Shown here: positions 1-20,006 of the stretch, piece by piece
How the letters are laid out: each line of letters begins with the position of its first letter
Numbering within the stretch: position 1 is the first letter of the stretch
NCBI GenBank assembly: GCA_002780065.1
Contig: PEWQ01000011.1
Span: forward strand, 1-20,685
Length of the DNA stretch: 20,685 nt
From: Candidatus Hydrogenedentes bacterium CG07_land_8_20_14_0_80_42_17
GTDB lineage: Bacteria; UBA8481
Direction of reading: 5' to 3'
Notes under the pieces: generated by a model
What the model was told of the DNA's origin: nothing
What the model saw: only the letters and a program-made list of their open reading frames with translations
The model's database searches: none
Program-made: the position numbers and the translations under genes

Positions 1-304
1 ATCTATTGTAAGCGAAGAGGAATCTCCTCTCAAAAATTCTGCAGTAACTTTTATTTCATTTATTATTTTTGGTTTCATTCCTTTAGCCGCTTATGTTGTT
101 TCACGTTTTGTTCCTGTATTCGGAGAAAATACTTTTATGGTCGCATCGTTTCTAACAGGAGTAACGCTTTTTATTCTCGGCTCGTTGAAATACAGGTTTA
201 CACTCCGCAATCCTTTTGTTTCAGGATTGGAAATGCTTATTGTCGGTGGACTTGCCTCTGGCGCTGCATACTTGATTGGAATACTTCTCTCAGGATTGGC
301 GTGA
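1..304 (+). CDS. VIT1/CCC1-family metal ion transporter, C-terminal part (5' end outside window)
   Basis: The open frame starting at base 2 gives about 100 residues and ends with TGA at 302-304. It is very hydrophobic, with three likely membrane helices. The ending (GLEMLIVGGLASGAAYLIG, then LLSGLA) and the middle section FGFIPLAAYVV followed by FLTGVTLFILGSLKYR match the end of the VIT1/CCC1 family. In that family these helices belong to an iron/manganese transporter that moves metal out of the cytosol. The N-terminal half lies before the window, so substrate and full length cannot be judged. The last codons lie in a 16-bp sequence repeated at 1247-1262 (see findings). Family call is by sequence pattern only. 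Confidence 0.75.
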   Translation, partial: SIVSEEESPLKNSAVTFISFIIFGFIPLAAYVVSRFVPVFGENTFMVASFLTGVTLFILGSLKYRFTLRNPFVSGLEMLIVGGLASGAAYLIGILLSGLA

Positions 305-1295: not shown

Positions 1296-1883
1296 TCATG
1301 ATTTTGATTTAGACATTAGATAATCGATTGTTTTATTCATCTCTTCAGCTTCCATCGTCCCGGGTTTCAATTCGATAAATCTCTTCCAATGCTGAATTGC
1401 AAGACCGGTATCACTGAGATTGTGGAATGCGATTATGCCGGCGCGATAATGCAACTCAGCATTGTCGGGCTCGGTGACCAATGCTTTGCCCAATGCCGCA
1501 TAAGCTTTCTTTGCTATTCCAAGCCTCCCGTAGAGCACACTGGCAACCATCAGAGTGGCAGTATCTTCAGCTATTATCGATGCCTTGGATATGTTTGCTT
1601 CAGCAAGATCAGTGTCTCCAATAGCAATCTGATAAGTTGAAAGAGCTAACAGTGCGTCAAGATCCTCACCGTTTTCATTCAGCCGTTTAATGAGAGCCGT
1701 TATTTGTGGAGGAACTTCCTTTCCATTTTTTCTAAATGCCAGTTCGTGCGGATTTAAAAGAAGCTCATCGATGCCAGCACTTATTGACGGTCGCTTGTAT
1801 TGCTTTGCCGCATAGAATAACATTGCTATGACCACCACGGCAAAAATGCACCATACAACAGTAATCTTTTTATTGACGTTCAT
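1296..1883 (-). CDS. Membrane-anchored TPR protein of the cytochrome c biogenesis operon
   Basis: This 195-residue protein has an N-terminal signal anchor (residues about 8-24, ITVVWCIFAVVVIAMLF) and a periplasmic part containing tetratricopeptide-like helices: about 85-110 (IGDTDLAEANISKAS), 115-138 (GRLGIAKKAYAALGKAL) and 140-180 (AELHYRAGIIAFHN through LAIQHWKRFIELKPG). The layout resembles NrfG/CcmI-like TPR proteins that hold apocytochrome c for heme ligation. It is the last gene of the minus-strand ccs operon, starting 10 bases after the CcsB-type gene, with AAGGAG just before its ATG. The exact role is inferred from position; TPR sequence alone does not fix a partner. Confidence 0.7.
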   Translation of the reverse strand: MNVNKKITVVWCIFAVVVIAMLFYAAKQYKRPSISAGIDELLLNPHELAFRKNGKEVPPQITALIKRLNENGEDLDALLALSTYQIAIGDTDLAEANISKASIIAEDTATLMVASVLYGRLGIAKKAYAALGKALVTEPDNAELHYRAGIIAFHNLSDTGLAIQHWKRFIELKPGTMEAEEMNKTIDYLMSKSKS

Positions 1884-1893
1884 TTATTCTCCT

Positions 1894-2916
1894 TTATGCG
1901 TACGAATGCAGTCCTGACAGAAAATAATTAACTCCAAAATATGTGAAGACAACAATTACAAAGCCGATCACAGCAAGCGCAACCGTCCATCTGCCTCTCA
2001 AACCGGCAACTATCCTTGAGTGAAGATATGCCGCGTAAATTAACCAGGTAATCAGCGCCCATGTCTCCTTCGGATCCCATGACCAGTAGGTGCCCCAGGT
2101 CTCGTTTGCCCATACGGCTCCTGTGACTATTCCTAAAGTCATGAATGGAAATGAGAAGCGAATCGCCGTTTCGACAGCTTGGTCTATTTTGTCGAGCGGC
2201 GGCAAGATCGACAGAAGAGTTTTAGAGATCTTGCCGGAAAAAATTCCGGTTCCTATAGCAACGAGTAATGCTATTGAAAATGCTTTCGCATCAAGCGGTA
2301 TTCTGAACCTTGCTCGAATTCCTTCAATTGGTGCAAGAGCGTCGATTTTTGAGAGGATAAGATGCAACGCAAAATAGACTAAGGCACCTGTAATTAATCC
2401 TGCATTGACTGAACCGAACCACCGGCACGCTTTGCTGTTTCGATCGTCTTTTTCCTGAGCGAGAAGATAAAGCACTCCGAGCGCATAAGAAAAAGCCACT
2501 ACCGAGTAACCGATGAAATAGGAAACAACGTGTGCAAGAAGCCAATTGGATTTTAATGCGGGAATCAATGGACGCAATTCTATTTCACCTTGCAATTGAG
2601 CATATCCGAGAAAGAGAAGCGCGAGAGGAGAGGCGCCTGCTCCGGCAATAGGCATTTCGAGATACTTTTCGAGAATAAGAGTTGATACCACGATGAGCCA
2701 CGCAAAAAGAACTAAAGTTTCAAATGTGTTGGTGAAAGGAATTCTTCCGGCTTTAACGGTCATGATTCCTATTGCCGCAGTGTTGAAGACTCCGCCCAAT
2801 AGAAGAGCATAATAGCCTGTTTTACCGATATGCTCTTTTCTGGCTGAAAAAGCGGCAATATAAATTACAGTCGCCGCCAGATACATGACGAGTGCCGCAT
2901 TGAAAAGTAAACTCAT
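1894..2916 (-). CDS. ccsB: Cytochrome c biogenesis protein CcsA/CcsB type (System II heme exporter subunit)
   Basis: This is a 340-residue multi-pass membrane protein of the CcmC/CcsA heme-handling family. The tryptophan-rich WWD-type segment lies at residues 274-299 (WGTYWSWDPKETWALITWL). It is flanked by candidate heme-ligand histidines: His129 in LLAHVVSYFIGY and His337 in the terminal FGVNYFLSGLHSYA. The early NTFETLVLFAW motif is also typical. In System II this protein with ResB carries heme to the outer face and joins it to CXXCH motifs. Its ATG overlaps the end of resB by 4 bases (ATGA at 2913-2916), so they are translationally coupled. Naming differs between lineages (CcsA, CcsB, ResC). 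Confidence 0.9.
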   Translation of the reverse strand: MSLLFNAALVMYLAATVIYIAAFSARKEHIGKTGYYALLLGGVFNTAAIGIMTVKAGRIPFTNTFETLVLFAWLIVVSTLILEKYLEMPIAGAGASPLALLFLGYAQLQGEIELRPLIPALKSNWLLAHVVSYFIGYSVVAFSYALGVLYLLAQEKDDRNSKACRWFGSVNAGLITGALVYFALHLILSKIDALAPIEGIRARFRIPLDAKAFSIALLVAIGTGIFSGKISKTLLSILPPLDKIDQAVETAIRFSFPFMTLGIVTGAVWANETWGTYWSWDPKETWALITWLIYAAYLHSRIVAGLRGRWTVALAVIGFVIVVFTYFGVNYFLSGLHSYA

Positions 2917-4274
2917 TCCTTTCCTCCTGCCATTTTTAATTCCGATTCTTTCACTAAAGTCATAAACCAGTTCCTTGCATCTCTATGAGCATGATATGTC
3001 CAGGACGATGCAACAAGAATTTTTTTTCCATTTTCATTTTTCACTAATGCCCAAACTTTGCGATGCGAAAAGAAAAATATGAAAGAGACACCGATAAGAA
3101 GCACGATAAAGCCGGTATATACAACGGGAACACCGGGATCTTTAGCGGCTTCGAGCACGGTGTATCGAAAACCCTCCTGATCATAACTGGATTGATAGAA
3201 TCGCCATCCGGCAAAGTCGAGCGGATGATTGACTCTTACAGTTTTTCTTCCAACCGGCTGATTGCCGGATATAACAACTATTTCGGAAATCCAATCTTTT
3301 GGAGGATTGTTAGGGTCGATTAAATATCGGAGAGAAATTCCTGAAGAGGTTGTGATAGGTTTTTCATCAGGAAAGAGAAAAACCTTTTCTTTGGCAATGC
3401 CATTTTCAATAATCGAGACCTGCATGATCGGTGAGATAAAATCTTTTGAACGCTCAACAATTTTGTCATTTTCAAAAACTGCATCCGGATATATTGCATC
3501 AACATGAATAGAATACTTGCCGTCAGGAGAAGATAGCTCACTGCCGATATCAACGGTTTTTCTTTCGGATTCATTTATGCCAGGAGAAGATATTTCGAGA
3601 TCACTGTAATATTCCATTTTGAAATCATCTAGCGCAAGAGCAAATGGGAGTTTTTTTTCACTGCCGTTTCGAAGATGCACAGTATCGTTCATTGCACCTT
3701 CTTCTATTATTATGCTTCCCTTTTCACTCCAAAGCCTGCCCATTACCGCTCCGATAATGATTATGATGAATCCAATATGCGTTATGAAGAACGCCCAGTG
3801 GCTGTAGCGGTGCTTCTCCGCAACAAGCATTTTTACTCCATTCTCTTCCAGAGTTCTTATCTCAAATCCTTTTTCATTTAGAGTTTGAGAAAAATTATCG
3901 AAGGATGTTTTCGAGGCGTCTAAAGTTACAGACGGAGTCATGGAAAGAATTTCGTTTTTATTTTTGATAGGCTCAGATGATTTAATAGAGTTCATTGTTT
4001 TCGGAAGCCAGTTGATTCCGCAGAGTAACGAGTTGGCAACCAGCAAAGCGAGCAGAGTGTTGAACCATTTTGTTCCATACATCTTGCCGGCATGCAGATC
4101 GAATGTTTCCGCTACTTTCATTACAACAGGTCCGAAGGTGCGAATGTATGCAGATTCGTCTGCTTCGCTTCCGAGGTCAAGAAACGTTCCAATGCCGGAA
4201 ACTATAGCGATAATTAGAAGAAGAGCTATGGCAAACTCCATCGAGGAGAGAAAAGAGATTGATCGCTTAAACAT
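2913..4274 (-). CDS. resB: Cytochrome c biogenesis protein ResB/Ccs1 family
   Basis: This 453-residue protein has the usual ResB plan. An N-terminal helix carries the family signature (LSSMEFAIALLLIIAIVSGIG). A second helix (WFNTLLALLVANSLLCGI) and a third (HWAFFITHIGFIIIIIGAVMG, starting with a His) follow. Then comes a large periplasmic domain of about 200 residues ending with HPLDFAGWRFYQSSY, and a last helix (VVYTGFIVLLIGVSFIFFF). ResB pairs with CcsA to form the System II cytochrome c synthetase and probably presents apocytochrome. It starts 3 bases after the upstream TPR gene and overlaps the CcsB-type gene. ResB and CcsB are separate here, not fused as in some lineages. Confidence 0.9.
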   Translation of the reverse strand: MFKRSISFLSSMEFAIALLLIIAIVSGIGTFLDLGSEADESAYIRTFGPVVMKVAETFDLHAGKMYGTKWFNTLLALLVANSLLCGINWLPKTMNSIKSSEPIKNKNEILSMTPSVTLDASKTSFDNFSQTLNEKGFEIRTLEENGVKMLVAEKHRYSHWAFFITHIGFIIIIIGAVMGRLWSEKGSIIIEEGAMNDTVHLRNGSEKKLPFALALDDFKMEYYSDLEISSPGINESERKTVDIGSELSSPDGKYSIHVDAIYPDAVFENDKIVERSKDFISPIMQVSIIENGIAKEKVFLFPDEKPITTSSGISLRYLIDPNNPPKDWISEIVVISGNQPVGRKTVRVNHPLDFAGWRFYQSSYDQEGFRYTVLEAAKDPGVPVVYTGFIVLLIGVSFIFFFSHRKVWALVKNENGKKILVASSWTYHAHRDARNWFMTLVKESELKMAGGKE

Positions 4275-4277
4275 TTA

Positions 4278-4811
4278 TTATTTGTTGAGTTCTGCTTTTA
4301 AAGCTTCTACTGCCTTTTTTGCCATTTCAGACTTTGCACCCATCGGTTCGACCTTTAAATATTTCTCGAAGTATTCAATGGCTTTGTTATTGTCTCCGGA
4401 TTCATGCATTGCGAGTACTGCCATTTCGAAAAGTGCTCCAGGATGATTGGCGTTTATAGATAGAGCCTTTTTTAGATCGCTTTCAGATTCTTCGGCTTTG
4501 CCGAGTCTGCGTTTTTGACGGGCAACTTCGACTAGCTTGTCGATATTTTTGGGGTCTGCGGCTAACTCTTTTTCAGCCGCCGCTAGCTCTTCAGGTGAAG
4601 CCTGCTCCATCGACATCCCGGATGAACTTTGATTCATTGCAGAGCTGTCTGTATTCATCGGACAGGTTGCGGACATAGCTCCTGAACTCATCATTGAATG
4701 AGCATTATTCTCAACCGGTTCCAGATTGTTCTTCGGCACTGCCGCCCAATAACCGATTCCGATTCCAACCAATAATGCCGCCGCAAGTAATAATGCATTG
4801 TTTCTTGTCAT
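4278..4811 (-). CDS. Signal-anchored TPR protein with Met/Ser-rich linker, first gene of the ccs operon
   Basis: The 177-residue protein starts at ATG 4811 (MTRNN), preceded by AAGGAG at 4819-4824 with 7-base spacing; an in-frame ATG seven codons upstream lies before that ribosome site and is less likely. Residues 5-22 form a signal anchor. Residues 38-68 are rich in Met and Ser, with one His and one Cys (H38, M40, M41, M46, C50, M52, M59, M66, M68). Residues about 72-175 form TPR-like helices (EELAAAEKELAADP, ALFEMAVLAMHESGDNNKA, IEYFEKYLKVEP). As the lead gene before resB it is probably a periplasmic apocytochrome-handling factor. The Met-rich stretch could bind copper or heme, but that is speculation. 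Confidence 0.7.
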   Translation of the reverse strand: MTRNNALLLAAALLVGIGIGYWAAVPKNNLEPVENNAHSMMSSGAMSATCPMNTDSSAMNQSSSGMSMEQASPEELAAAEKELAADPKNIDKLVEVARQKRRLGKAEESESDLKKALSINANHPGALFEMAVLAMHESGDNNKAIEYFEKYLKVEPMGAKSEMAKKAVEALKAELNK

Positions 4812-4967
4812 AATAAGACTCCTTATTTTCAAAATTGATTCACTATTATTTCATTAAATCTCATTAAGTAAATAAATTTTAGTGTAGCTTTTCACTACGG
4901 CTTGCTAACGTGCAAGTTAAAAACATAAGAGCTTGTGGTTTTTGCTTTGATTATTATTTGTTAAAGA

Positions 4968-5022: not shown

Positions 5023-6410
5023 ATGCAAAAAAAATATGGAATAATAAATCGTGCAACGATTTTTTTTGGGATGACTTTTTTGATTGTGTTTCTAATTGCA
5101 GTTACTCAGTCGAGTATTCTGGGCTCTACTACAGAAGAATCGGGAAATCCGAAGAATAGAATTGTATTGCATGTCATACTTCTAGGACGCCGGTGATAGT
5201 TCAGCAGTGGCGCGAGAGCCTGCATTCAAAGATCGGAACCGGCTGTATTGAATGTCACGGAGCCGATTCTTCAGATTCTGATGCATTTATGCATAATGGA
5301 AATTTAATTGCTACTATAGTGACCCCAAAAGATTGCGCTGTTTGCCATAAAGAGATAGCCGATGAATTTCAGACAAGCCATCACGCTCGCGCCGGCGAGA
5401 TTCTCGGTTCGCTCGACAATGTTCTTGGCGAAGTAGTAGAAGGATTACCGGCCGCCGCAAACGGATGCCAGCAATGTCATGGAACAAAGGTGAGATTTTT
5501 ATTCACTGATACAGGTGCAGTTCGACGTGATACTTCAGGCAAATTACTTTTTGACCCTGCAACATGGCCGAATACAGGAATGGGACGAATGAATCTGGAT
5601 GGTTCACGCGGAAGCTGTTCAGCCTGCCATTCGCGCCATACTTTTTCACGCAAGATGGCGCGCTCACCGGAAGTTTGCGGAAAGTGTCATATGGGGCCTG
5701 ACCATCCTCAAGCTGAAATATACAATGAATCGAAGCACGGAATAGCGTTCAACTCTCAGCGCGATTCAATGAATATGAATTCGGAAACTTGGATAGCTGG
5801 AGTGAACTACAGTGCGGCTCCTACATGTGCTACGTGCCATATGAGTGCTACACGCAATCAGCCGGTTACTCATGATGTTGGCAAACGCATTTCATGGACG
5901 CTTAGACCTGTTATCTCACAAAAGCTTGAGAATTCCGATTCACGCCGTGATTCGATGAAGGATGTTTGCGCCGCGTGCCACTCTTCGAATTTCGTTAGTT
6001 CTTTTTATGTTCAATACGACAATGCTGTAAATCTTTACAATGAGAAATTTGCTCGCCCGGCGCAGGAAATAATCGCGGCTTTGAAAGATGCAGGGAAGCT
6101 TACTCCGACGCAGTTCGACGAAAAGATGGAATGGATATATTACGAATTATGGCACCATGAGGGCCGGCGGGCTCGAATGGGAGCTTCGATGATGGGACCG
6201 GATTACACTCAGTGGCATGGCTTCTACGAGGTTGCGAAGAATTTTTACACGGAATTTTTGCCTGAAGCTGAACGTCTTGCACAAGGCACTTCTGCTCAAT
6301 CTGTAATAGAGGAGATTAAAAATCGTGATGACAACAAATGGCTTCGCGGACTTCCACCGGAAGAGCGTGAACGAATTATGCAATTCTATCGTCAAAGATA
6401 CGGTCAGTAA
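5023..6410 (+). CDS. Octaheme c-type cytochrome, hydroxylamine oxidoreductase (HAO) family, interrupted by a one-base frameshift
   Basis: The gene starts at ATG 5023 with AAGGAG at 5011-5016 and encodes an N-terminal export helix. That first frame stops at 5194-5196. The heme-binding body is in another frame, open from 5160 to 6410. It holds eight CXXCH motifs: CIACH (5163), CIECH, CAVCH, CQQCH, CSACH, CGKCH, CATCH, CAACH. HAO-like signatures include PKDCAVCH, TWPNTGMGRMN, GSCSACHSRH, CGKCHMGPDHPQ, APTCATCHMSAT, WHHEGRRARMG and MMGPDYTQWHGFYEV. No CXXCK motif is present, which argues against octaheme nitrite reductase. Family members oxidise hydroxylamine or, in epsilonproteobacterial types, probably reduce nitrogen compounds; direction cannot be read here. 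Starting at GTG 5193 would give 405 residues, without signal peptide or first heme. The gene is divergent from the ccs operon that would mature it. Confidence 0.8.
5157..5163 (+). other. Frameshift junction in the octaheme cytochrome gene
   Basis: Upstream of here the signal-peptide frame is open. In the heme-body frame a TAG at 5157-5159 blocks any upstream reading, and the first heme codon TGT begins at 5163. Joining the two requires a -1 shift, equal to one lost base, between about 5157 and 5163. The local sequence (aatagaattgta) has no homopolymer and no classic slippery heptamer. Confidence 0.75.
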
Positions 6411-6446: not shown

Positions 6447-6670
6447 TTATCTATTGATATTATTTATGCCGTATCGCTCCAATTTTCGGTAAATTGTTGT
6501 TCTGTCAATTCCGAGTCTGCGGGCTGAAATGCAGTTTTTACAGCTTCATACGCATTAGATGCAGTATAAATATTCCAGCCTTCTTCAGACAATAAAGCTG
6601 AAAGACTATCACGTATGACAGCTTCATCATCTACGATAAGAATTGAAATTTCTGATTTAATCTCGGACAT
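6447..6670 (-). pseudogene. Remnant of an NtrC-family response regulator (internal deletion)
   Basis: From ATG 6670 (AAGGTG just upstream) the frame encodes the start of a receiver domain: ISILIVDDEAVIRDSLSALL, then EEGWNIYTASNAYEAVKTA. It carries the acidic DD pair but ends before the phospho-acceptor Asp. The frame then turns to unrelated residues and stops at 6464. In a second frame the same bases encode ISARRLGIDRTTIYRKLERYG, ending with TAA at 6447-6449. That is the typical C-terminal Fis-type helix-turn-helix of NtrC-like sigma-54 activators. So a deletion has removed the rest of the receiver, the AAA+ domain and the linker, joining both ends out of frame near 6534. Such regulators normally have about 450 residues. 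It may once have controlled the adjacent cytochrome gene. Confidence 0.8.
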
Positions 6671-6805: not shown

Positions 6806-7912
6806 GTGCGAAAAAAATTAATTCTTATTACGTTTGGAATTGTGTTTGGCTTTTTGATTTCAGAATTGATTTTGAGGCTTATCTTCCCTTTGCCGGATAT
6901 TCAGGCTACAAGAGGAATGTATATTTCTGATTCAACTTTAGCTTATAGAATGCGCCCGAACTTTTCATATTTAGGAGAGAGTTTGAATCAATTTGGCTTT
7001 AGAGGGCGAAATTGGGACGAGGATACAGAAATTAGGCATATCGCTTTTTTTGGCGATTCGTTTACATTTGGAACCGGAGTTGACAAATATAGTTTCACTT
7101 TTTCTAAAATAATTGAAAACGAATTGAACAAAAAAAATATTTTGGATAAAAAAATTGAGATTATAAATTTTGGAACCCCGGGATATTCAACGATTCAGGA
7201 AAAATTATTATATGAAAATGCAAAGAGATCTTTGTTTGCAAAGTTTAATCCTGAAATTGTTTTATTATTTTTTTTTCTAGGTAATGATGCTCACGATAAT
7301 GCAACCGGAAATCTTTTTGTTCAGGTTATAGACGGTAATTTAGCGACATATCGGCCTTCGTGGGTGAGATTGAAGCTAGATCCGCTTTTAGGCAAGCTTG
7401 AGTTATATTCGTGGAGCAGGATTATTTTTAGAAAATTGAGATCCCTTTGGCAGAAACAACACAGCAAAGAAGAATTCAATGAAGTTGCTCAGAACGATGC
7501 ATTCTCTATGCTGAGAAAAGATTATGTGAGTCGTGATCCATGGAAAAAAGGCTGGTTAGAAACCGCAAAAACAATTTCTTTATGGAAAAAAAGTTGTGAC
7601 GAAGATTCAAAAATATTTGCGATCGTTATGATTCCTGATTTAGTGCAGATAGATGAGTCATTACAATTGAATATTGCAAAAAAAAATGGCATTAGTTCAG
7701 AAGAGTATGACACTATGCTGCCCAATCGAAAGATTACAGAGATTGCAAATACAAACGGAATCCCGTATCTGGATTTAACGCCTGAAATGAAAAGATGCTC
7801 AGAACCTTCGCGGCTTTATATTCCGCTTGACGGGCATTTTTCTGAAGAAGGCCATAAAATTATTTCGCAACCAGTTGAAAATTTCATAGCTACCATAATT
7901 AGAAATAAATAA
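6806..7912 (+). CDS. SGNH/GDSL-type hydrolase-like protein with N-terminal membrane anchor
   Basis: The 368-residue protein starts at GTG 6806 with AGAGGA about 7 bases upstream. Residues 4-27 form a membrane anchor or signal. The SGNH blocks are visible: block I FFGDSFTFG with nucleophile Ser85; block II NFGTPGYSTIQE with its Gly; block III FLGNDAHDN with GND; and block V PLDGHFSEEGH with the Asp/His pair near the C-terminus. This set suggests an active esterase, acyltransferase or deacetylase acting outside the cytosol on an unknown lipid or polysaccharide substrate. The gene is clearly more A/T-rich than the fdh operon. It ends 41 bases before the glutamate dehydrogenase gene and may be co-transcribed. 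No function beyond the fold is claimed. Confidence 0.75.
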   Translation: MRKKLILITFGIVFGFLISELILRLIFPLPDIQATRGMYISDSTLAYRMRPNFSYLGESLNQFGFRGRNWDEDTEIRHIAFFGDSFTFGTGVDKYSFTFSKIIENELNKKNILDKKIEIINFGTPGYSTIQEKLLYENAKRSLFAKFNPEIVLLFFFLGNDAHDNATGNLFVQVIDGNLATYRPSWVRLKLDPLLGKLELYSWSRIIFRKLRSLWQKQHSKEEFNEVAQNDAFSMLRKDYVSRDPWKKGWLETAKTISLWKKSCDEDSKIFAIVMIPDLVQIDESLQLNIAKKNGISSEEYDTMLPNRKITEIANTNGIPYLDLTPEMKRCSEPSRLYIPLDGHFSEEGHKIISQPVENFIATIIRNK

Positions 7913-7953: not shown

Positions 7954-10900
7954 ATGGACAACTTAAAGAAACAAAAGCTTGTATTAGCAAAAAAAAGTTC
8001 TGTAATTTCGGATAACTCTGCAAATTCTATAGCAGATGTTGCGTCTCAGCTAAAATCTCTTTCACAGGGAAATGCTCTGCCGTCTTCGCTAATGAAGAGC
8101 TGGCTCCACGTGCTAGATTGCATCAGTAAATGGGAAGAACAACTTGAAGAGTATTTGAATACTCGCTATGGATCTAGAGGGAAAAAACTCTACTCAAAAT
8201 ATCGAGGTGCGTTTGGAGAATCATATCAGGTTATGGTGACGCCGGAACAAGCGGCTGAAGATATTTATGATCTCGAAGCTTCAGAAGGAAAACTTTTTAT
8301 TAGTTGGGGGAAAACTCAAAAAACTGAAAAAATTTCGATTCTTAAAATTTTCAGTCCTTTGAGCAAATTGCCTATTTCAAGAGTGACGCCGGTTCTGGTT
8401 CACTTTTCATTTATTGTTGAAGATGAAAGTTCATTCGAAATCAAGACTGCTAAGTCTGCAGTTTTTTTACATATATTCAAGATTAGATTGTTAAACGGAA
8501 ACATTATTGACAATAATGAAATGGGGAAAATGATTGCCGATTGCATACGCGAAGCTCTTGAAGAAAAGACGGTTCATGATTCTCTGAATACATTGATGAT
8601 TACTGCGGGATTGGCCACAAAAGAATTGGAGCTCCTCAGAACTATCAGAAATTACGCGCGGCAGATATCGGCGTTGCCTGCTAGAAGTGAAGCAAACAAT
8701 ACTTTGATTTCGCATCCTGAGGCTTCGAAACTGCTTGTTCAGATATTCTCTTCAAAATTTTCGCCTGATAATTCCAAACGTAAAAATCTTGATCATTTGA
8801 TAAATAGATTTATGCAGTATCTTTCTTCTGTGACCTCTATTGACGAAGATCGAACGCTGAGAGTTTTCTTCAATGTGATAGAGTCTGCATTGCGGACGAA
8901 TTATTTTCTTCCTGAGTCAAAGACAATTGCCATAAAGCTTGATTGCTCGAAGATATACCGAATGCCTGAGCCAAGACCGTGGCGTGAGATTTATGTTTAC
9001 GGCGGCAAAGTTATGGAGGGCTGTCATCTTCGCGGAGGCCCTGTTGCGAGAGGCGGGATCAGATGGTCTGAAAGGCCTGCGGATTTCAGAACTGAAATTC
9101 TTGGTTTGATGAAAACTCAAATAACTAAAAATGCTCAGATTGTTCCTACCGGTGCTAAGGGCGGATTTGTGGTGAAACGCCAGTGCGACAAAAATAACTT
9201 TTTTGCCGAAGTTGAATCATGCTATCGGCTTTTGATTTCCTCTTTGCTTGAAATTCAGGATAACCTCGATAATAACGGAAAAGTAATTCATCAGGCAAAT
9301 GTTGTTGCTTATGATGGAGATGATACTTATCTCGTTGTTGCGGCTGACAAAGGCACTGCATCTTTTTCAGATGTTGCTAATGAGTTGTCTAAACGATACG
9401 GGTTTTGGCTTGGAGATGCATTTGCTTCAGGAGGCTCGAACGGCTTTGATCATAAGATAGAAGGCATTACAGCTAAAGGCGCATGGACTTCAGCAGAAAG
9501 GCATTTTAGGGACCTTGGCAAAAATATTGCAAAAGAAACTTTTATTGCAGTCGGAATCGGAGATATGTCCGGTGATGTTTTCGGAAATGGAATGTTGCTT
9601 TCGAAAAACCTTAAGCTGATAGCGGCTTTTGATCACCGCGATATTTTTATAGACCCTGACCCTCATCCGACAAAGTCGTTAGCTGAAAGAAAACGTCTCT
9701 TCAATTTGAAACGTTCCTCATGGCAGGATTACAACAAAAAATTATTGTCGAAGGGCGGTTGCGTTTTTTCTCGAGCTAAGAAGAGTTTAGCTCTTTCAAT
9801 CGAAGCACGTAAAGTTTTGGGCATATCCGAAACTTCAATCGACCCTGACAGCCTTATCAGAGCTATTCTTTCTGCAAATGTTGACCTGCTTTACAACGGA
9901 GGCATAGGAACTTACGTCAAGGCAGGTCATGAACATAATTCTGAAGTTGGTGATCCTCAAAATGATTCAGTCAGAATCAGCGCGGGAAATTTGCATGCTA
10001 AAATAGTTGTTGAGGGAGGTAATCTTGGATTCACTCAAGCAGCTAGAATTGAATACGCTTTGAACGGAGGAAGGATATACACGGACGCGATCGATAATTC
10101 AGCCGGAGTGGATTTGTCTGATCACGAAGTTAATCTGAAGATTCTTTTGGACGGTTCGAGAAAATATAATTCGAAGACTCGTAGTTCGTTACTGAAAAAG
10201 TTTAAGAGTTCTATAATCGACGATGTGCTTTCAGATAATTATGAACAGACATTGGCTGTTGCGCTCGATGAAATAAGGTCTAGGCGCCGCCTTACGCCAT
10301 TTGCAAATACGATTGCGGATCTGGAAAAAAGAGGAATATTGAATTCCCAGTTGGAAGGTCTGCCCGATCCGGATGAATTACGGGATAGGTTGAAAGAAGG
10401 TGTCGGACTCACTAGACCCGAACTCTCTGTTTTGCTCTCGTATGCCAAGATCGATACGAAAGCCCGCCTTTATGATTCTCCGATTACGCATAAACATTAT
10501 TTGGATGATTTTATGCCGCTCTATTTTGCTCCGGAAATCAGAAGAGAATTAGGTTCTGAGATATTCAAACACAAACTCAAAGACAATATACTTGTGACCG
10601 TTCTTACCGATAGGCTGGTGAATTTGCATGGCTCTACGGTCATTTATAGAATGACCTCAGAATTGGGTTTGTCTGCTTCGCGCGTCTCGGAATGCTTGAT
10701 AGTTGCAAGCGAGGCACTTGATATTAAAACTCTTAAAAAAGAAATATGCAGGCTAGATGGAAAAATTCCTTCGTCGATTCAATATGAAGAATTAATCAGA
10801 CTCGAAGAATCTGTAGTTCTTGCGGCAAGGTGGCTAGTCCGAAACGCTCCCGACCTAAGAAACAAATTGCAAAAAACAATTGAAACTTATCGCGCTCTTC

Positions 10901-12876: not shown

Positions 12877-13680
12877 ATGAGAGAACTGAACTGTATTCTC
12901 GATGATATTGACGTTTATCAAAAGCGGATAAACGGGAGTGCTCAGACGCCAAAAGAGATATTCACATTTCAGCGAGAGCTTTTAGCTATGCAACTTGCAG
13001 TTCTTAAAGAATATCCACTATCGTTGCCATCCAAAGAAGAGATTGTCTTACGGCTAAAGCGAGATAAAAGAATTTTGTCGCCGAAAGATTTCACCGAACC
13101 GTTATGGACAGAACTTTTAAACGTTACAAAAAAGATCGTCGAAGAGCAGTTGCCTGAAGCTATGCGCTCTGAAGCCTTTAATAAAGATGATATTTCTGCT
13201 TTCATCTGGCAACTTTCAGCTCGACCGATTGTTATGAGTCTTCGAAGTCAGGCTGAAGAAATTATTAGAAAGTGGAAAGACCCGAATTGTCCGGTTTGCG
13301 GCGGCGGCGCAACATTCAACAGGATTCGTGTTGAAGGAACGAGAACTCTCGCTTGCTCATGGTGCAATGCGGAATGGGGCTTCGAGCGATTTCGTTGCGC
13401 ATTTTGCGGAGAGAATGATTCGGATAAGTTCCGACATTGGATTCTGGAAGGGAACATTCCTTACCGAATCGAGTTATGTCATACCTGTCGGCATTATTTG
13501 AAAGTGCTTACGGAGGAGAAATTGCCTGAAGAGGAACGTGATGGGAGGAGACCTCTTTGGGTGGAGGATATAGGCACATTATTTCTTGATATTGCCGCAG
13601 AGAAAGCAGGTTTCCATCGTGATGGACTGCTTGGCTTGAGAGCAGGGAAAGTGGAAGAAGCTATCAGTTTAATGTCATAA
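12877..13680 (+). CDS. fdhE: Formate dehydrogenase accessory protein FdhE
   Basis: The 267-residue protein has an N-terminal helical region (about 1-130) and a C-terminal zinc/iron-binding part. Four CXXC pairs are visible, at C138/C141 (CPVC), C160/C163 (CSWC), C174/C177 (CAFC) and C201/C204 (CHTC). The order and the text around them (CPVCGG, LACSWCNAEW, RCAFCGE, ELCHTCRHYLK) match FdhE. FdhE binds the formate dehydrogenase catalytic subunit in the cytoplasm and is needed for its maturation before Tat export. The start at ATG 12877 follows AAAGGG. The gene stands 16 bases before fdhA, as expected for a dedicated chaperone. Confidence 0.9.
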   Translation: MRELNCILDDIDVYQKRINGSAQTPKEIFTFQRELLAMQLAVLKEYPLSLPSKEEIVLRLKRDKRILSPKDFTEPLWTELLNVTKKIVEEQLPEAMRSEAFNKDDISAFIWQLSARPIVMSLRSQAEEIIRKWKDPNCPVCGGGATFNRIRVEGTRTLACSWCNAEWGFERFRCAFCGENDSDKFRHWILEGNIPYRIELCHTCRHYLKVLTEEKLPEEERDGRRPLWVEDIGTLFLDIAAEKAGFHRDGLLGLRAGKVEEAISLMS

Positions 13681-13696
13681 AAGAAGGAGAAGGAGC

Positions 13697-16600
13697 ATGA
13701 AACAAAATGACCAAATAAATTTAAACAGAAGAGAGTTTCTTGGTCGGTCGCTTGGTGTCGGCGGAGCATGGATGTGTTGGGATCTTTTCGGTTGGTCTAA
13801 AGCAGAGGCAACAACTTATGCTGAAAGTTTTAAGCTCACCGATACAAAGGAGTCTCTCACCATCTGCCCATATTGCGGAGTTGGATGCGGTATGTGGGTT
13901 CACACCAGAGATAACAAAGTAGTGAACTTAGGAGGAGATCCTGACCATCCAATCAACGAAGGCGCACTTTGCAGTAAGGGCAATGCACTTCAGGAGATAT
14001 CGTGGAGCCCGCGCCGATTGCGTAAGGTGAAGTATCGTGCCCCAGGTAGTAGCACTTGGGTTGAAAAAGATATGTCATGGGCAATAGCTGAAATCGCTCA
14101 ACGCATCAAGAAGACGCGAGACGCGTCATTTCTGAAGACAGATGATGCAGGAACCACGGTGAACCGAACTGAAAATTTAGCTGTTATTGGCGGAGCATCG
14201 CTCGACAACGAAGAGTGCTATCTCATTTACAAGCTTACTCGTGCTCTTGGCGTGGTTTACTTCGAACATCAAGCGCGCGTCTGTCACTCTTCAACCGTCG
14301 GTGCTCTCGGCCCCTCCTTCGGCCGCGGTGCCATGACTAACCACTGGATCGATATCAAGAATGCGGATGTCGTCTTCATCATCGGCTCAAATCCTGCAGA
14401 GAACCATCCTATGAGCTTCCGCTGGATTACACGGGCGCGAGAAGAACGTGGAGCGAAAGTCATTGTAGCAGACCCGCGATTTACTCGATCTGCGAGCCTC
14501 GCTGATCTCTATGTTCGACATAGGCCCGGAACGGATATTGCGCTCATCAATGGGATGATCAATTACGCTCTGGAAAATAATCTCATTCATGAAGATTATG
14601 TTCGTGAATACACCAATGCATCATTTTTAGTGAATGAGGGATTTAAGTTTGAAGATGGACTCTTCACTGGCTATGACGCGGAGAAGCGTAATTACGATAC
14701 TGCAACATGGAATTATCAAAAGGATGCTACTGGTAATGTAATTCAAGACAAAACTCTTAAAAATTCGAGAACGGTTTTTTCTCTTCTTAAGGCGCATATG
14801 AGTCGTTACACACTTGATATGGTAAGCAAAGTTACCGGGGTTGACAAAGGGACACTGGATGAGATGTATAAGCTTTATTGCTCGACTGGCGCACCAGACA
14901 AGACAGGAACAATTCTCTATGCAATGGGTGCCACCCAGCATACTGTCGGAGTTCAGTACATTCGCGGTTATGCTATTCTTCAGTTATTACTTGGGAACAT
15001 AGGCGTGGCTGGTGGTGGCATCAATGCTATGCGTGGTGAATCTAATGTGCAAGGCTCTACGGATATGGCACTGCTTGCTCATCTCGTGCCGGGATATATG
15101 GCTATTCCAAATGTAGCTAAGCATCCAACACTAAAAGATTACCTTGAGAAAGAGACTCCAAAGACCGGCTACTGGATCAACAAACCGAAATTCTTTGTGA
15201 GCTTCTTGAAGGCTATGTGGGGCGATGCGGCAACTCAAGAGAACGACTTCTGTTATAATTATATGCCAAAGGTTGGGAAGGGATTTCAGGGAGCAGGTTA
15301 CTCGTGGCTCCCATTATTCGAGGCATTAGCAGGAGGGAACATTAAAGGAATGATGGTTTGGGGGATGAATCCTGCAGTTTCCAGTCCGAATGTAAATAAA
15401 GCTTATCGTGGATTCGAAAAACTCGAGTGGCTTGCGGCATTCGATCTATGGGAGACAGAAACTGCTTCTTTCTGGAAACGTCCAGGTGCTGATCCGTCAA
15501 AGATTCAGACTGAGGTTTTTCTTTTTCCTGCCGCGGCAAGTTTTGAAAAAGAAGGAAGCATAACAAACTCAGGTCGCTGGATACAATGGCGCACTGCCGC
15601 TGTACCACCGTTGGGTGAAGCTAAAAGCGACCTCTGGTACCTCAATGCGGTTCAACAGGAGCTTAGCAGATTATATGCTGCTGATGCTCAAGCTATATTC
15701 CCGGATCCAATTGTGAAACTCAACTGGGATTATGGCAAAGACGAGCCGGATGTACATCTTGTTGCGCGTGAAATCAACGGCTACACCGTAGCCGACAAAA
15801 AACAAGTTGCTAATTTTACGAAGCTAGCTGAAGACGGTTCAACTGCGTGCGGAAACTGGATATATTCTGGATTCTATCCGGGCTCAGAGAAGAAGGATAA
15901 TTTAGCGGCGCGGAGAGGAAAAGAGGATAAAAGCGGATTAGGACTTTATCCAATGTGGTCCTATGCATGGCCGGTCAATCGCAGAATTGTTTACAATCGC
16001 GCTTCTGCTGATCTTCTTGGAAGACCTTGGGACCCAAAACGGGAATTAGTCCGCTGGGACGTGGCTAAAGGTAATTGGGTCAATTCAGATGTACCTGACT
16101 TTGGCTGGAAAGATGCAAAGACAGGAGAGCAGATTCCTCCGGACAAATCCGGTTCGGCACCTTATATAATGTTGCCTGAACTAAAAGCCCGGCTCTTCGT
16201 TCCAAATGGTGTTGTGCGAGACGGCCCTTACACTGAGCACTATGAGCCACTCGAAAGCCCTGTTAAGAATCTTCTTTCATCTCAACAGAACAATCCTGTG
16301 ATCAAGATTTGGAAGACAGAGGGAAACGATGTAGCAGGAATTGATGACCCGAACTTTCCGTTGATTGCTACGACCTTTCGTCTCACCGAACACTGGCAGG
16401 CTGGAGCTATGACTCGAAACCTTTCGCTTCTGACAGAATTGATGCCTGAGATGTTTGTGGAGATGAGTCCTGAACTGGCATCGGCAAAAGGTATTGTGAA
16501 CGACGAATGGGTTTTGGTAGTAAGCGCTCGAGGCCAATGTCGGGCTAAAGCTAATGTATCACCGCGAATGAAAGCTGTTGAGCTCAACGGTGTGAAACAC

Positions 16601-16762
16601 GAAATGGTAGCGCTTCCATGGCACTTTGGCTATCAGGGATTAACTACAGGAGGACCTGCAGGAAATAATTACGCGATTAATCAGATTACTCCAAGTGTGG
16701 GAGACGCAAATACGATGATTCCAGAATACAAAGCTTTTCTCTGTGATGTAAGAAAGATATAG
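13697..16762 (+). CDS. fdhA: Formate dehydrogenase catalytic (alpha) subunit, Tat-exported, cysteine form
   Basis: The 1021-residue molybdopterin oxidoreductase oxidises formate to CO2. A twin-arginine signal (LNRREFLGRSLGVGG, Arg11-Arg12) directs it to the periplasm folded. A [4Fe-4S] site is formed by C57, C60 and C64 (CPYCGVGCG) and C92 (LCSKG). The active-site loop is HQARVCHSSTVGALGPSFGRG with Cys196 (TGT at 14282-14284). E. coli FdnG has selenocysteine at this position, so this is a Cys variant read without UGA decoding. GRGAMTNHW and IGSNPAENHP, which bind the cofactor, follow. The length is close to FdnG. The start has a strong AAGGAG site. It is followed by the Fe-S and membrane subunits. 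Confidence 0.93.
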   Translation: MKQNDQINLNRREFLGRSLGVGGAWMCWDLFGWSKAEATTYAESFKLTDTKESLTICPYCGVGCGMWVHTRDNKVVNLGGDPDHPINEGALCSKGNALQEISWSPRRLRKVKYRAPGSSTWVEKDMSWAIAEIAQRIKKTRDASFLKTDDAGTTVNRTENLAVIGGASLDNEECYLIYKLTRALGVVYFEHQARVCHSSTVGALGPSFGRGAMTNHWIDIKNADVVFIIGSNPAENHPMSFRWITRAREERGAKVIVADPRFTRSASLADLYVRHRPGTDIALINGMINYALENNLIHEDYVREYTNASFLVNEGFKFEDGLFTGYDAEKRNYDTATWNYQKDATGNVIQDKTLKNSRTVFSLLKAHMSRYTLDMVSKVTGVDKGTLDEMYKLYCSTGAPDKTGTILYAMGATQHTVGVQYIRGYAILQLLLGNIGVAGGGINAMRGESNVQGSTDMALLAHLVPGYMAIPNVAKHPTLKDYLEKETPKTGYWINKPKFFVSFLKAMWGDAATQENDFCYNYMPKVGKGFQGAGYSWLPLFEALAGGNIKGMMVWGMNPAVSSPNVNKAYRGFEKLEWLAAFDLWETETASFWKRPGADPSKIQTEVFLFPAAASFEKEGSITNSGRWIQWRTAAVPPLGEAKSDLWYLNAVQQELSRLYAADAQAIFPDPIVKLNWDYGKDEPDVHLVAREINGYTVADKKQVANFTKLAEDGSTACGNWIYSGFYPGSEKKDNLAARRGKEDKSGLGLYPMWSYAWPVNRRIVYNRASADLLGRPWDPKRELVRWDVAKGNWVNSDVPDFGWKDAKTGEQIPPDKSGSAPYIMLPELKARLFVPNGVVRDGPYTEHYEPLESPVKNLLSSQQNNPVIKIWKTEGNDVAGIDDPNFPLIATTFRLTEHWQAGAMTRNLSLLTELMPEMFVEMSPELASAKGIVNDEWVLVVSARGQCRAKANVSPRMKAVELNGVKHEMVALPWHFGYQGLTTGGPAGNNYAINQITPSVGDANTMIPEYKAFLCDVRKI

Positions 16763-16773
16763 GAGGCGCGAAG

Positions 16774-16845
16774 ATGATACTTTCAATTCAGTTCTGTTTG
16801 GTTGACGAACGCTTTTATACAAGAAGGAGGATGCTCGATGTCTAA
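16774..16845 (+). CDS. Possible 23-codon leader peptide between fdhA and fdhB
   Basis: An ATG at 16774 lies 7 bases after AGGAGG (16761-16766), which itself overlaps the fdhA stop. It opens a short frame that ends with TAA at 16843-16845, a few bases inside fdhB. The fdhB ribosome site AAGGAGG lies within this frame. Translation of the peptide could keep the 75-base gap open for ribosomes and couple fdhA to fdhB. The peptide (MILSIQFCLVDERFY and on) resembles nothing I know. It may simply be chance. Confidence 0.25.
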   Translation: MILSIQFCLVDERFYTRRRMLDV

Positions 16846-17644
16846 AGCATTTTTGATTGACTTAACTAAATGCATGGGTTGCCGTGCCTGCCAGGTCGCA
16901 TGCAAACGGTGGAATAATCTCGAGGCTGAACATACCTCTATGACTTCAGACTCGTGGACGAATCCATTTCGGCTTTCAGCTCGCACATGGACCCGGGTGG
17001 ATTTTACTGAGCTACAAAGTCCGCAGTATAAGGCAGGTATGAAGTGGGTATTTGCAAGGCGGCAATGTATGCACTGTTTACATCCTGCTTGTGTTTCTGC
17101 GTGCCCTGTTGGTGCATTTCGCAAGACTGATGAGGGACCTGTTGTTTATGACGCCCAAAAGTGCATAGGCTGTCGATACTGCATGGTATCTTGTCCATTT
17201 GGAGTGCCGGGTTTCGAGTGGGATAAGGGTTTGCTGGCGCAACCGCTAATAAAGAAGTGCAAGATGTGCGTCGATCGTTTAGGAGCAGGAATGGAGCCTG
17301 CATGTGTCAAGCACTGCCCGCCGCGCGCTACCATCTTTGGTGAGCGGGATGAGCTACTGGCAACAGCGAAAGAACGTATAGCAGCAAATCCCGATACATA
17401 CATCAATCATATCTATGGAGAGAACGAAGTTGGAGGGACATCGATGCTTTATCTTTCTTCGGTTCCATTTGAGCAAATCGGGTTTCCAAAGTTAGGGAGC
17501 GAAGCAGTGACGGTCAATACCGAAGCAGTTATGGAGAAGACATTGCCGTTCGCAGCCGCGTGGACTGTTATACTTGCTGCGACTTACGGTGTGGTCAAAT
17601 TCCGGGAGAGGACTAATCCGCAAGGAGAGGAGAAGAACCAATGA
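16838..17644 (+). CDS. fdhB: Formate dehydrogenase iron-sulfur (beta) subunit
   Basis: This 268-residue ferredoxin-like subunit passes electrons from the catalytic subunit to the membrane subunit. Cysteines for four [4Fe-4S] clusters are visible: C12-X2-C15-X2-C18-X3-C22; C77-X2-C80-X4-C85-X3-C89; C109-X2-C112-X2-C115-X3-C119; and C141, C144, C156, C160. A single C-terminal helix (residues about 235-253, TLPFAAAWTVILAATYGVV) anchors it in the membrane, as in FdnH. There is no separate signal; it probably rides out with the Tat-bearing alpha subunit. The start at 16838 follows AAGGAGG; the in-frame ATG at 16802 lies before that site. It overlaps the next gene by 4 bases (ATGA). Confidence 0.92.
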   Translation: MSKAFLIDLTKCMGCRACQVACKRWNNLEAEHTSMTSDSWTNPFRLSARTWTRVDFTELQSPQYKAGMKWVFARRQCMHCLHPACVSACPVGAFRKTDEGPVVYDAQKCIGCRYCMVSCPFGVPGFEWDKGLLAQPLIKKCKMCVDRLGAGMEPACVKHCPPRATIFGERDELLATAKERIAANPDTYINHIYGENEVGGTSMLYLSSVPFEQIGFPKLGSEAVTVNTEAVMEKTLPFAAAWTVILAATYGVVKFRERTNPQGEEKNQ

Positions 17645-18783
17645 ACTCTGAAAACAAAACATCTTCACCAACTATCTCCTTTAGTTGGACGATACTTATC
17701 ATTTTAATGGTTGCAGGATTTTTAACTACTGTTGCAAGGTTTATCTGGGGCATTGGCTCTATATCAAACTTGAACGATTCATACCCATGGGGATTATGGA
17801 TTAGTTTCGATCTTTTGTGTGGAATAGCACTGGCCGCAGGCGCATTTACCACTGCCGGAGGTGTTTACATTCTTGGATTTGACAAATTCAAGCCATTGTT
17901 GCGTCCTGCAATCCTAACCGGATTTCTGGGGTATCTTCTTGCTATTCTTGCTCTAGGTGTGGATCTTGGCAGACCTGAGCGTATCTGGCATCTAATCATC
18001 TATTGGAATCCGCACTCAGTGATGTTTGAAGTTGGCTGGTGTGTTATGCTTTACACTACAATATTAGCACTCGAATTCCTTCCTATGCCTCTTGAGAGAT
18101 TCGGTTTGAAAAAACCGCTCAGCATCATTCACAAATTCACAATACCTATCGTTATCGTAGGAGTAGTTCTCTCTACATTGCATCAATCATCGCTCGGGTC
18201 GCTCTTTCTAATTGTAGTAAATCGTTTGCATCCGCTTTGGCACTCGAAGTTACTTCCGCTCTTCTTCTTTCTAACCGCTGTTGCAGTCGGCCCTGCTGTC
18301 GTTGTCGTCGAGGCATACTTAAGTTCTCGTATCTTCAAACGACATTTCGAATTGGACCTACTGAGCCGAATTGTGAAAGTGATTCCAATGCTTCTCGGTC
18401 TCTATCTTGTGCTACGGTTTGGTGATCTGGTAATTGCAGGAAAACTCGGGGCACTCTTTACAGGAAGTTTATTGACTCTGCTATTCTGGATTGAAATCCT
18501 GATCGGAGTAGTTGCTCCAATCTATCTATTCTCGAAAGCTTCAGTGAGAGAAAATCAAACTTCTCTTGTAAAGACCTCGCTTCTCGTGATTATTGGAGTA
18601 GTGCTGAATCGTTTTAATGTGAGCCTTATTGCTATTGCAAGACCTGATGGTGCAACATACTTTCCTCATCTTCTTGAGTTCTGCATATCATTTGGCGTTA
18701 TTGCAGGAGGAATCTTCGTCTTCTGGCTTGCCGCTCGGTTTTTGCCGATCTGGGAAGTTAGTGATGACGCTAGTAAGGTGTAA
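17641..18783 (+). CDS. NrfD/HybB-type integral membrane subunit (quinone reductase) of formate dehydrogenase
   Basis: The 380-residue protein is nearly all membrane helices, about nine to ten. It belongs to the NrfD/PsrC/HybB family, with typical text such as YPWGLWISFDLLCGIALAAGA, GVDLGRPERIWHLI, and LHQSSLGSLFLI followed by HPLWHS. In such complexes this subunit, which has no heme, takes electrons from the Fe-S protein and reduces menaquinone or ubiquinone. Here it replaces the diheme FdnI-type cytochrome b subunit of E. coli. Its start ATG overlaps the fdhB stop (ATGA, 17641-17644), and its stop lies 2 bases before the Mob fusion gene, all signs of one operon. Confidence 0.88.
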   Translation: MNSENKTSSPTISFSWTILIILMVAGFLTTVARFIWGIGSISNLNDSYPWGLWISFDLLCGIALAAGAFTTAGGVYILGFDKFKPLLRPAILTGFLGYLLAILALGVDLGRPERIWHLIIYWNPHSVMFEVGWCVMLYTTILALEFLPMPLERFGLKKPLSIIHKFTIPIVIVGVVLSTLHQSSLGSLFLIVVNRLHPLWHSKLLPLFFFLTAVAVGPAVVVVEAYLSSRIFKRHFELDLLSRIVKVIPMLLGLYLVLRFGDLVIAGKLGALFTGSLLTLLFWIEILIGVVAPIYLFSKASVRENQTSLVKTSLLVIIGVVLNRFNVSLIAIARPDGATYFPHLLEFCISFGVIAGGIFVFWLAARFLPIWEVSDDASKV

Positions 18784-18813
18784 TTGTGTCCGACCTCACC
18801 AATTGTGTACGAC
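18782..18813 (+). repeat. Imperfect 13-bp tandem repeat at the start of the Mob fusion gene
   Basis: AATTGTGTCCGAC (18782-18794) and AATTGTGTACGAC (18801-18813) differ by one base and are offset by 19 bases. The first contains the GTG start codon. This may be a slippage duplication or a relic, and it makes the exact N-terminus less certain. Confidence 0.4.
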
Positions 18814-20006
18814 ATAATTGCAGACTAGTTGAGGGTGTTGGGCGGAGATCTGATTCTTTTACGCCTGATGCCGTCGATACAAAGATGTTGAAGAATGAAG
18901 TTGCGCGTTATGTGCCTGATATGCTTATGATCGGGGCATCAGGTAGTAAAATTGGGAAGACCCGATTTGCGTGCGAATTGCTCAGAACTTTCAGTAAACA
19001 ATTTTCTATCGATGGAGTAAAGGTAACGACCGTGCGAGAACGGAATGGAACATGTCCGCGTGGAGGTGCAGGCTGTGGCGTCTGCGGAAGTCTCTCAGGC
19101 AATTATGAGATTGTTGAGGAGCACGATGTTGCGGGCAGGAAGGATACGTCGAAACTGCTTTCTGCAGGTGCAAGGCGAGTGTTCTGGTTGAGAGCACACA
19201 GGGAGCATATTCAAGAGGGAGCGGTTGAGCTCGAAGAATGTCGAGGCTTTGGGAATCCGTGCATCTGCGAGTCAAATACCATGCGACTTGTAATTGAGCC
19301 AGGCATATTCCTTATGGTGACACAAGGTTCAACAATGAAGGATTCTGCTCGAGAGGTGCTGGGCTTTGCAGATCGCATTCTTACTATTGAAAAAGATAAT
19401 TTGAAGTTTGACCTTTCAACGATTTCATTTCGGGAAGGGAGCTGGCTTATTCGTGAAAGAGCTTCAGCCATTATTCTTGCCGGTGGGAAAAGTACTCGAA
19501 TGGGTAGCGACAAGGCTTTGCTTTCTATAAATGGGGTACCTCTTATCCGAAGTGCTCTTCAACAGTTAAGCCCTTCATTCTCCGAGGTATTGATAAGTTC
19601 AGCTACAACATCGCAGTATGGTTTCTGCGGTGCTCGTGTCGTTCCTGATAGTGAATCCAATCTGGGACCCATCGGAGGAATCGCTACGGCTATGGAGTCC
19701 GCAGTGAACGATGTTTGCTTTGTTGTTGCATGCGACATTCCCCGAATCTCGGTTCGAGTTTTGCGCAAGATGTTCCGTGCACTTTCCGGTGCTGATGGTG
19801 TTGTCCCAACCATTAAAGGCAAGATCGAACCACTCTTCGCGATATACACGAAACGTATGCTACCGGCGATACGCAAAGCGATTGCGTCTGGAGAGCGGAG
19901 AATAAGAATGGTCTATCCGGAGTGTCAGATTCGTTATGTTGAGATTGACGATCCGATCATCAACCTCAACACTCGTGAGGAGTATCGGAGATATTTAGAA
20001 ATGTAG
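18786..20006 (+). CDS. MobB-like P-loop domain fused to MobA (molybdenum cofactor guanylyltransferase)
   Basis: The 406-residue protein has two parts. Residues about 43-225 hold a Walker A loop, GASGSKIGKT (50-59), like MobB-type GTP-binding proteins. Unusually they also carry six cysteines: C90, C97 and C100 (TCPRGGAGCGVC), and C152, C159 and C161 (ECRGFGNPCIC). Residues about 226-406 are MobA: AIILAGGKSTRMGSDKALL for GTP binding, then CDIP with Asp317 as likely metal ligand, and NLNTREEY at the end. MobA adds GMP to molybdopterin to give the bis-MGD cofactor that formate dehydrogenase needs, so its place at the end of the fdh operon makes sense. GTG start 18786 follows AAGGTG by 5 bases. 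ATG at 18885 is a possible alternative start. Confidence 0.85.
   Translation: MSDLTNCVRHNCRLVEGVGRRSDSFTPDAVDTKMLKNEVARYVPDMLMIGASGSKIGKTRFACELLRTFSKQFSIDGVKVTTVRERNGTCPRGGAGCGVCGSLSGNYEIVEEHDVAGRKDTSKLLSAGARRVFWLRAHREHIQEGAVELEECRGFGNPCICESNTMRLVIEPGIFLMVTQGSTMKDSAREVLGFADRILTIEKDNLKFDLSTISFREGSWLIRERASAIILAGGKSTRMGSDKALLSINGVPLIRSALQQLSPSFSEVLISSATTSQYGFCGARVVPDSESNLGPIGGIATAMESAVNDVCFVVACDIPRISVRVLRKMFRALSGADGVVPTIKGKIEPLFAIYTKRMLPAIRKAIASGERRIRMVYPECQIRYVEIDDPIINLNTREEYRRYLEM

Follow-up and report, generated by a model that had tools for sequence, protein, structure and literature searches.

A frameshifted octaheme cytochrome gene and its broken multiheme neighbours in a draft genome of Candidatus Hydrogenedentes

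Introduction

Why should a gene for an eight-heme cytochrome be open from its first heme motif to its stop codon and have its export leader in another reading frame? The question is raised by a contig of Candidatus Hydrogenedentes bacterium CG07_land_8_20_14_0_80_42_17 (assembly GCA_002780065.1, contig PEWQ01000011.1, positions 1 to 20,685), which was analysed as a whole and is called the window here. Our literature search returned no description of this locus. The reading that we favour, at a probability of about 0.72, is a recent, locus-wide decay of a respiratory module, in which the octaheme gene is a recently inactivated copy and the lesions are those of one draft assembly. The context of broken neighbouring genes, which the original prediction, made from the letters of this stretch, could not see, is the new point of the present study.

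Results and Discussion

Leader and hemes in two frames

The features of the cytochrome gene are as follows.

5023..5196, plus strand: leader frame, with ATG, export or membrane helix and NPKNR, then out of frame to a TGA (from the sequence and the list of open reading frames)
5158..5163, plus strand: interval of the one-base shift that separates the leader from heme 1 (TAG upstream; the TGT of CIACH begins at 5163)
5160..6410, plus strand: octaheme cytochrome frame, with eight CXXCH motifs, PF13447 and the match to PDB 4qo5
5193..5195, plus strand: candidate GTG restart, overlapping the leader-frame TGA as GTGA and opening the reading frame 5193-6410

The leader frame has a good ribosome-binding sequence upstream of its ATG at 5023 (GAAGGAAAGGAGTTCATCATG; GAAGGAAAGGAG), begins MQKKYGIINRATIFFGMTFLIVFLIAVTQSSILGSTTEESGNPKNR, codes for a hydrophobic helix behind a positively charged start, then for ...STTEESGNPKNR, and stops at the TGA of 5194-5196. 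All eight CXXCH motifs (CIACH, CIECH, CAVCH, CQQCH, CSACH, CGKCH, CATCH and CAACH) share the second frame, which is closed on its 5' side by a TAG at 5157-5159 and runs open from 5160 to the TAA at 6408-6410, with 415 codons from CIACH onward and zero further stops. Joining the two frames amounts to a net loss of one base (or a gain of two) in 5158-5163; because the TAG stands in the cytochrome frame, a switch that keeps heme 1 has to fall at about this place, and the codon log-odds over the junction agree weakly with a passage from the leader frame to the cytochrome frame. The sequence and the reading frame list thus bear out what had been claimed at the outset, namely that leader and heme motifs lie in different frames, that the shift sits in 5157-5163 (now about 5158-5163) and that the downstream frame is free of stops. 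The same prediction had the protein split from both its signal peptide and its first heme. The leader is indeed lost, but heme 1 is in frame with hemes 2-8, and judging from the frames it would be lost only if translation restarted at GTG 5193.

Ribosomes starting at ATG 5023 would yield only a 57-residue leader peptide, ending at the TGA of 5194. GTG 5193 would be the only possible conventional restart, and the GTGA overlap might permit a coupled one; its product would carry the motifs of seven hemes, have neither leader nor export signal nor heme 1, and stay in the cytoplasm. System II cytochrome maturation by CcsA-ResB attaches heme outside the cytoplasmic membrane, and since the CcsA-ResB encoded next door works there, such a chain should stay without heme. 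An exported chain with the leader fused to heme 1 is not encoded, as the two differ in frame, and the gene as written is therefore a broken copy and not a functional member of its family.

Family and relatives

By its sequence the protein is an octaheme cytochrome c that lies nearest to IhOCC of Ignicoccus hospitalis and resembles hydroxylamine oxidoreductase (HAO) more distantly. The Pfam search returned PF13447 (Multi-haem_cyto, E 2.8e-28), and the best solved relative was IhOCC (PDB 4qo5; E 3.4e-46 with a single sequence and 4e-66 with a profile); HAO (1fgj), KsHAOr (6h5l) and HDH (6hif) gave weaker matches. Eight CXXCH motifs in one chain, in the HAO-type order, place it in the octaheme HAO-OCC superfamily. 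The predicted structure of the cytochrome was poor (mean pLDDT 54). IhOCC is the closest solved protein over most of the length and has the same order of the eight motifs; however, it has about 500 residues after heme 1, against about 415 here, where the loops are shorter and the gene is broken. HAO, KsHAOr and HDH belong to the same superfamily and their later hemes can be aligned, whereas their oxidative members carry a Tyr that is cross-linked to the catalytic heme 4. The alignments to 1fgj stop before the position of this Tyr. The earlier label "HAO-family" holds in a broad sense only, the closest solved relative being IhOCC and not HAO proper.

In all 29 full-length relatives (14 from whole genomes and 15 from named MAGs) the heme-1 motif stands in one open frame with its own N-terminus, and the relatives have a comparable hydrophobic leader in one piece with heme 1. 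Because these 29 keep leader and heme 1 together, we do not regard the break as a matter of chance. The invariant columns among relatives include all eight CXXCH motifs, and the C-terminal end has the conserved family motif LWHHEGRRARxG..GPDYTxWHG. Of 98 columns that do not vary in 20 relatives, the present protein departs from 1, as compared with 0-4 in intact copies; with no excess of odd substitutions downstream, the shift is either young or, less probably, not a real one. The comparison with orthologues that had been proposed for the residue between NPKNR and CIACH was also run. The relatives do not fix this residue, since the position before the first Cys of heme 1 varies freely among them (R, K, S, Q, A, T and others). 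Another octaheme remnant was seen at L013 (G032:C178, 1501-2035), with CLQCR at heme 1, residues about 99-334 missing and a changed frame.

The orthologues from Acidobacteria, Planctomycetota, Ignavibacteria and Spirochaetia MAGs (L022-L036) are 46-64% identical and share the eight hemes and the leader-heme 1 layout. Unlike the present copy they are whole genes, and several stand beside Rieske protein and cytochrome b (L024, L026), cytochrome b (L022) or a NapH-like ferredoxin with a NapC/NrfH-like cytochrome (L032), whereas here the neighbours are CcsA-ResB and the stump of a regulator. Such neighbours in the relatives point to a quinol-fed supply of electrons, which fits a reductase. Outside the anammox lineages, most bacterial HAO-like enzymes are inferred to act as reductases (PMC12758564). 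From family and gene neighbourhood, the intact protein was probably a terminal reductase of nitrite- or hydroxylamine-type substrates, membrane-anchored or exported. NrfA was looked for in this genome and not found.

Damage in the adjoining genes

The octaheme break does not stand alone. Next to it, and on the adjoining contig C199, we found the following.

6447..6670, minus strand: stump of an NtrC-type response regulator (PF00072 residues 1-38 of 111; HTH_8 residues 25-42 of 42)
2..304, plus strand: C-terminal part of a VIT-family gene (PF01988), continued on C199 and broken there by a TAA
C199:437, minus strand: the TAA lesion of the VIT gene; the 30 codons that follow it contain no start codon
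C199 1359-2746: outer-membrane barrel-like protein with a frameshift, the signal peptide in 1359-1637 and the body to 2746 in another frame (judged by eye; no family match)
C199 7500-9718: NapC-type 22-heme cytochrome with one TGA (7742) in place of a conserved Trp codon
C199 12399-14585: multiheme cytochrome fused to a b561-type membrane domain, with a single TGA at 13029

The join between the two contigs lies within the VIT gene, where window bases 1-78 are the exact reverse complement of C199 bases 1-78. C199 belongs to this genome, since it carries the only phosphoglycerate kinase found there; it also has triosephosphate isomerase-like and phosphoglycerate mutase-like frames (judged by eye), TatC, and a multiheme electron-transfer cluster with multiheme cytochromes, an FeS protein and NrfD. 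The position of the TGA in the NapC-type gene is Trp in 7/7 nearest relatives (L197-L203), the genes of which are all free of stops, and the relatives of the multiheme-b561 gene are nearly all whole. Several multiheme genes of the C199 cluster are still open. The multiheme stretches are off the average in composition, which could also mark foreign or poorly assembled DNA.

The regulator stump joins the receiver residues 1-38 (6530-6670) out of frame to the Fis helix-turn-helix end (6447-6533); the minus-strand reading frame listed there (6464-6670) has 68 residues. Intact NtrC-type comparators are 450 aa long in the same-order genome G001 and 457 aa beside the octaheme gene of L029, by comparison with which about a kilobase is missing.

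Proposed decay of the module and its controls

Taken together, at least six genes would be damaged in an unbroken multiheme electron-transfer region of ~42 kb, the broken set comprising the NapC-type 22-heme cytochrome, the multiheme-b561 protein, the outer-membrane barrel, the VIT transporter, the NtrC-type regulator and the octaheme cytochrome. The base lost between leader and heme 1 would have inactivated the octaheme gene, and from the number of lesions in the region we infer that selection on the module was relaxed recently; on these contigs the genes for housekeeping, for formate dehydrogenase and for cytochrome maturation are open. As in ordinary pseudogenisation of respiratory genes, there is one lesion per gene, a single functional module is hit and genes elsewhere are intact, but the process here is early, with most frames otherwise open, and is seen in one genome only. 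Against decay it may be said that no degradation can be seen in the cytochrome frame after the shift, and that the cytochrome-maturation genes and several multiheme genes are open.

How much of the genome is damaged in this way? The assembly is a draft in 207 contigs with a completeness of 87%, and about 1.04 of its 2.39 Mb were scanned. For frameshifts, conserved proteins of one same-order genome were compared with the 1.04 Mb: none of the 93 conserved genes was frameshifted (0/93), and the scan recovered 84 of 93 planted single deletions (90%). Nonsense codons were sought, free of any reference, as in-frame stops flanked by strong coding signal, with a six-frame comparison against antisense shadows. 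Six candidates emerged from the 1.04 Mb, and the only two convincing ones were the C199 genes; the other four were two ordinary gene starts, one gene end (recR-like) and one antisense shadow. A frameshift scan without reference yielded 50 clusters; many of these were soon followed by a start codon, as is usual where one gene meets the next, and the scan was set aside. Six broken genes among roughly 28 in the region against 0/93 give about 1e-4 in Fisher's exact test, an indication and no more, since the scoring differed between region and control and the gene count of the region is rough (28-32). Thus six lesions fall in linked neighbours within ~42 kb, and no convincing damage was seen elsewhere in the scanned part. 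A search for plasmid sequences gave no match.

If the lesions are real, the region would offer a snapshot of a bacterium losing its multiheme-based respiration, in which the hit genes retain nearly all of their sequence, and those that serve to oxidise formate and to attach heme are whole. Since the hit genes remain nearly complete, the order of the losses may be tested by comparison of strains. Automatic annotation would then assign to this genome the functions of an octaheme reductase and an electron conduit, which it may have lost.

Competing explanations

The original prediction had left the choice between a recent break, a base-calling error and a tolerated shift. A recent break is what we favour, as part of a wider pattern with at least five other damaged genes in the adjoining ~42 kb. 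An assembly or base-calling error here and, independently, at the other lesions, with all genes whole in the cell, appears unlikely to us. The fully open and conserved downstream frame, the draft state of the genome and the A/T-rich context of both indels speak for it, and for the one base of the octaheme gene it may hold. However, in the same assembly 0/93 conserved genes are frameshifted, at a detection rate of 90% for planted deletions, there is no homopolymer at the shift site, and error leaves unexplained the three different nonsense codons in the adjoining genes and the deleted regulator, which is beyond base-calling error because it lacks about 1 kb and its two ends lie in different frames. 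An isolated base-calling error is accordingly less likely than decay of the locus. Draft genomes from mixed populations are consensus sequences, and intact and broken alleles might coexist with the broken one shown in the assembly, in accordance with the young appearance of the lesions; but the genome search showed no second allele, and such a mixture of strains seems improbable.

The full exported protein could also be made by programmed ribosomal frameshifting or transcriptional slippage, possibly as a form of regulation. In favour of this, neither frame is interrupted before the junction, and the leader frame starts well. Nevertheless, the leader-frame codons there are AAT AGA ATT GTA, with no X-XXY-YYZ heptamer in 5158-5166; A or T runs of six or longer do not occur between 5082 and 6410; the only long runs, A8 (5027) and T8 (5060), precede the leader helix or coincide with its beginning, and slipping there would lead into the TAG at 5157; and none of the 29 relatives (0/29) has a split gene. 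The rescue by frameshifting entertained at the outset thus found neither a slippery heptamer or long homopolymer at the site nor a relative that uses it, and we consider it very improbable. Recoding of TGA as Trp or Sec was raised by the two in-frame TGA codons of the C199 genes and rejected on stop usage, Sec machinery and the TAA lesion: TGA is the commonest stop of the long reading frames (277 TGA, 248 TAA and 116 TAG; n=641), SelA was not found in the genome search, all matches to SelB were below the cut-off and resemble other translational GTPases, and the search for tRNA-Sec found none, the examined model matches being ordinary tRNAs. We also consider it very improbable that all lesions are bypassed in the cell, by frameshifting at 5158-5163 and readthrough of TGA and TAA in the neighbouring cytochrome genes, so that the whole module would be held off translationally and switched on under certain conditions.

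Other genes of the window

Two further groups of genes in the window are open.

1296..4832, minus strand: cytochrome c maturation group, all open, with TPR protein, ResB, CcsA and TPR protein (PF05140, PF01578 and TPR families)
12877..20006, plus strand: FdhE, formate dehydrogenase-N alpha, FeS subunit, NrfD and MobA-like protein, all intact

The formate dehydrogenase group is a possible electron source. Its alpha subunit (13697-16762) apparently has Cys where many have Sec (VCHSS), in keeping with the absence of detectable Sec machinery. A HicA/HicB-like toxin-antitoxin pair (487-1019) separates the VIT gene from the cytochrome c maturation group. A large NAD-glutamate dehydrogenase of 1152 residues is encoded at 7954-11412; it gave no match to the first ACT domains that the long bacterial enzyme has. 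An SGNH hydrolase (6806-7912) adjoins the regulator stump, and its best match among the genomes searched (27%; L099 10354-11547) lies beside the intact NtrC-type gene of G001.
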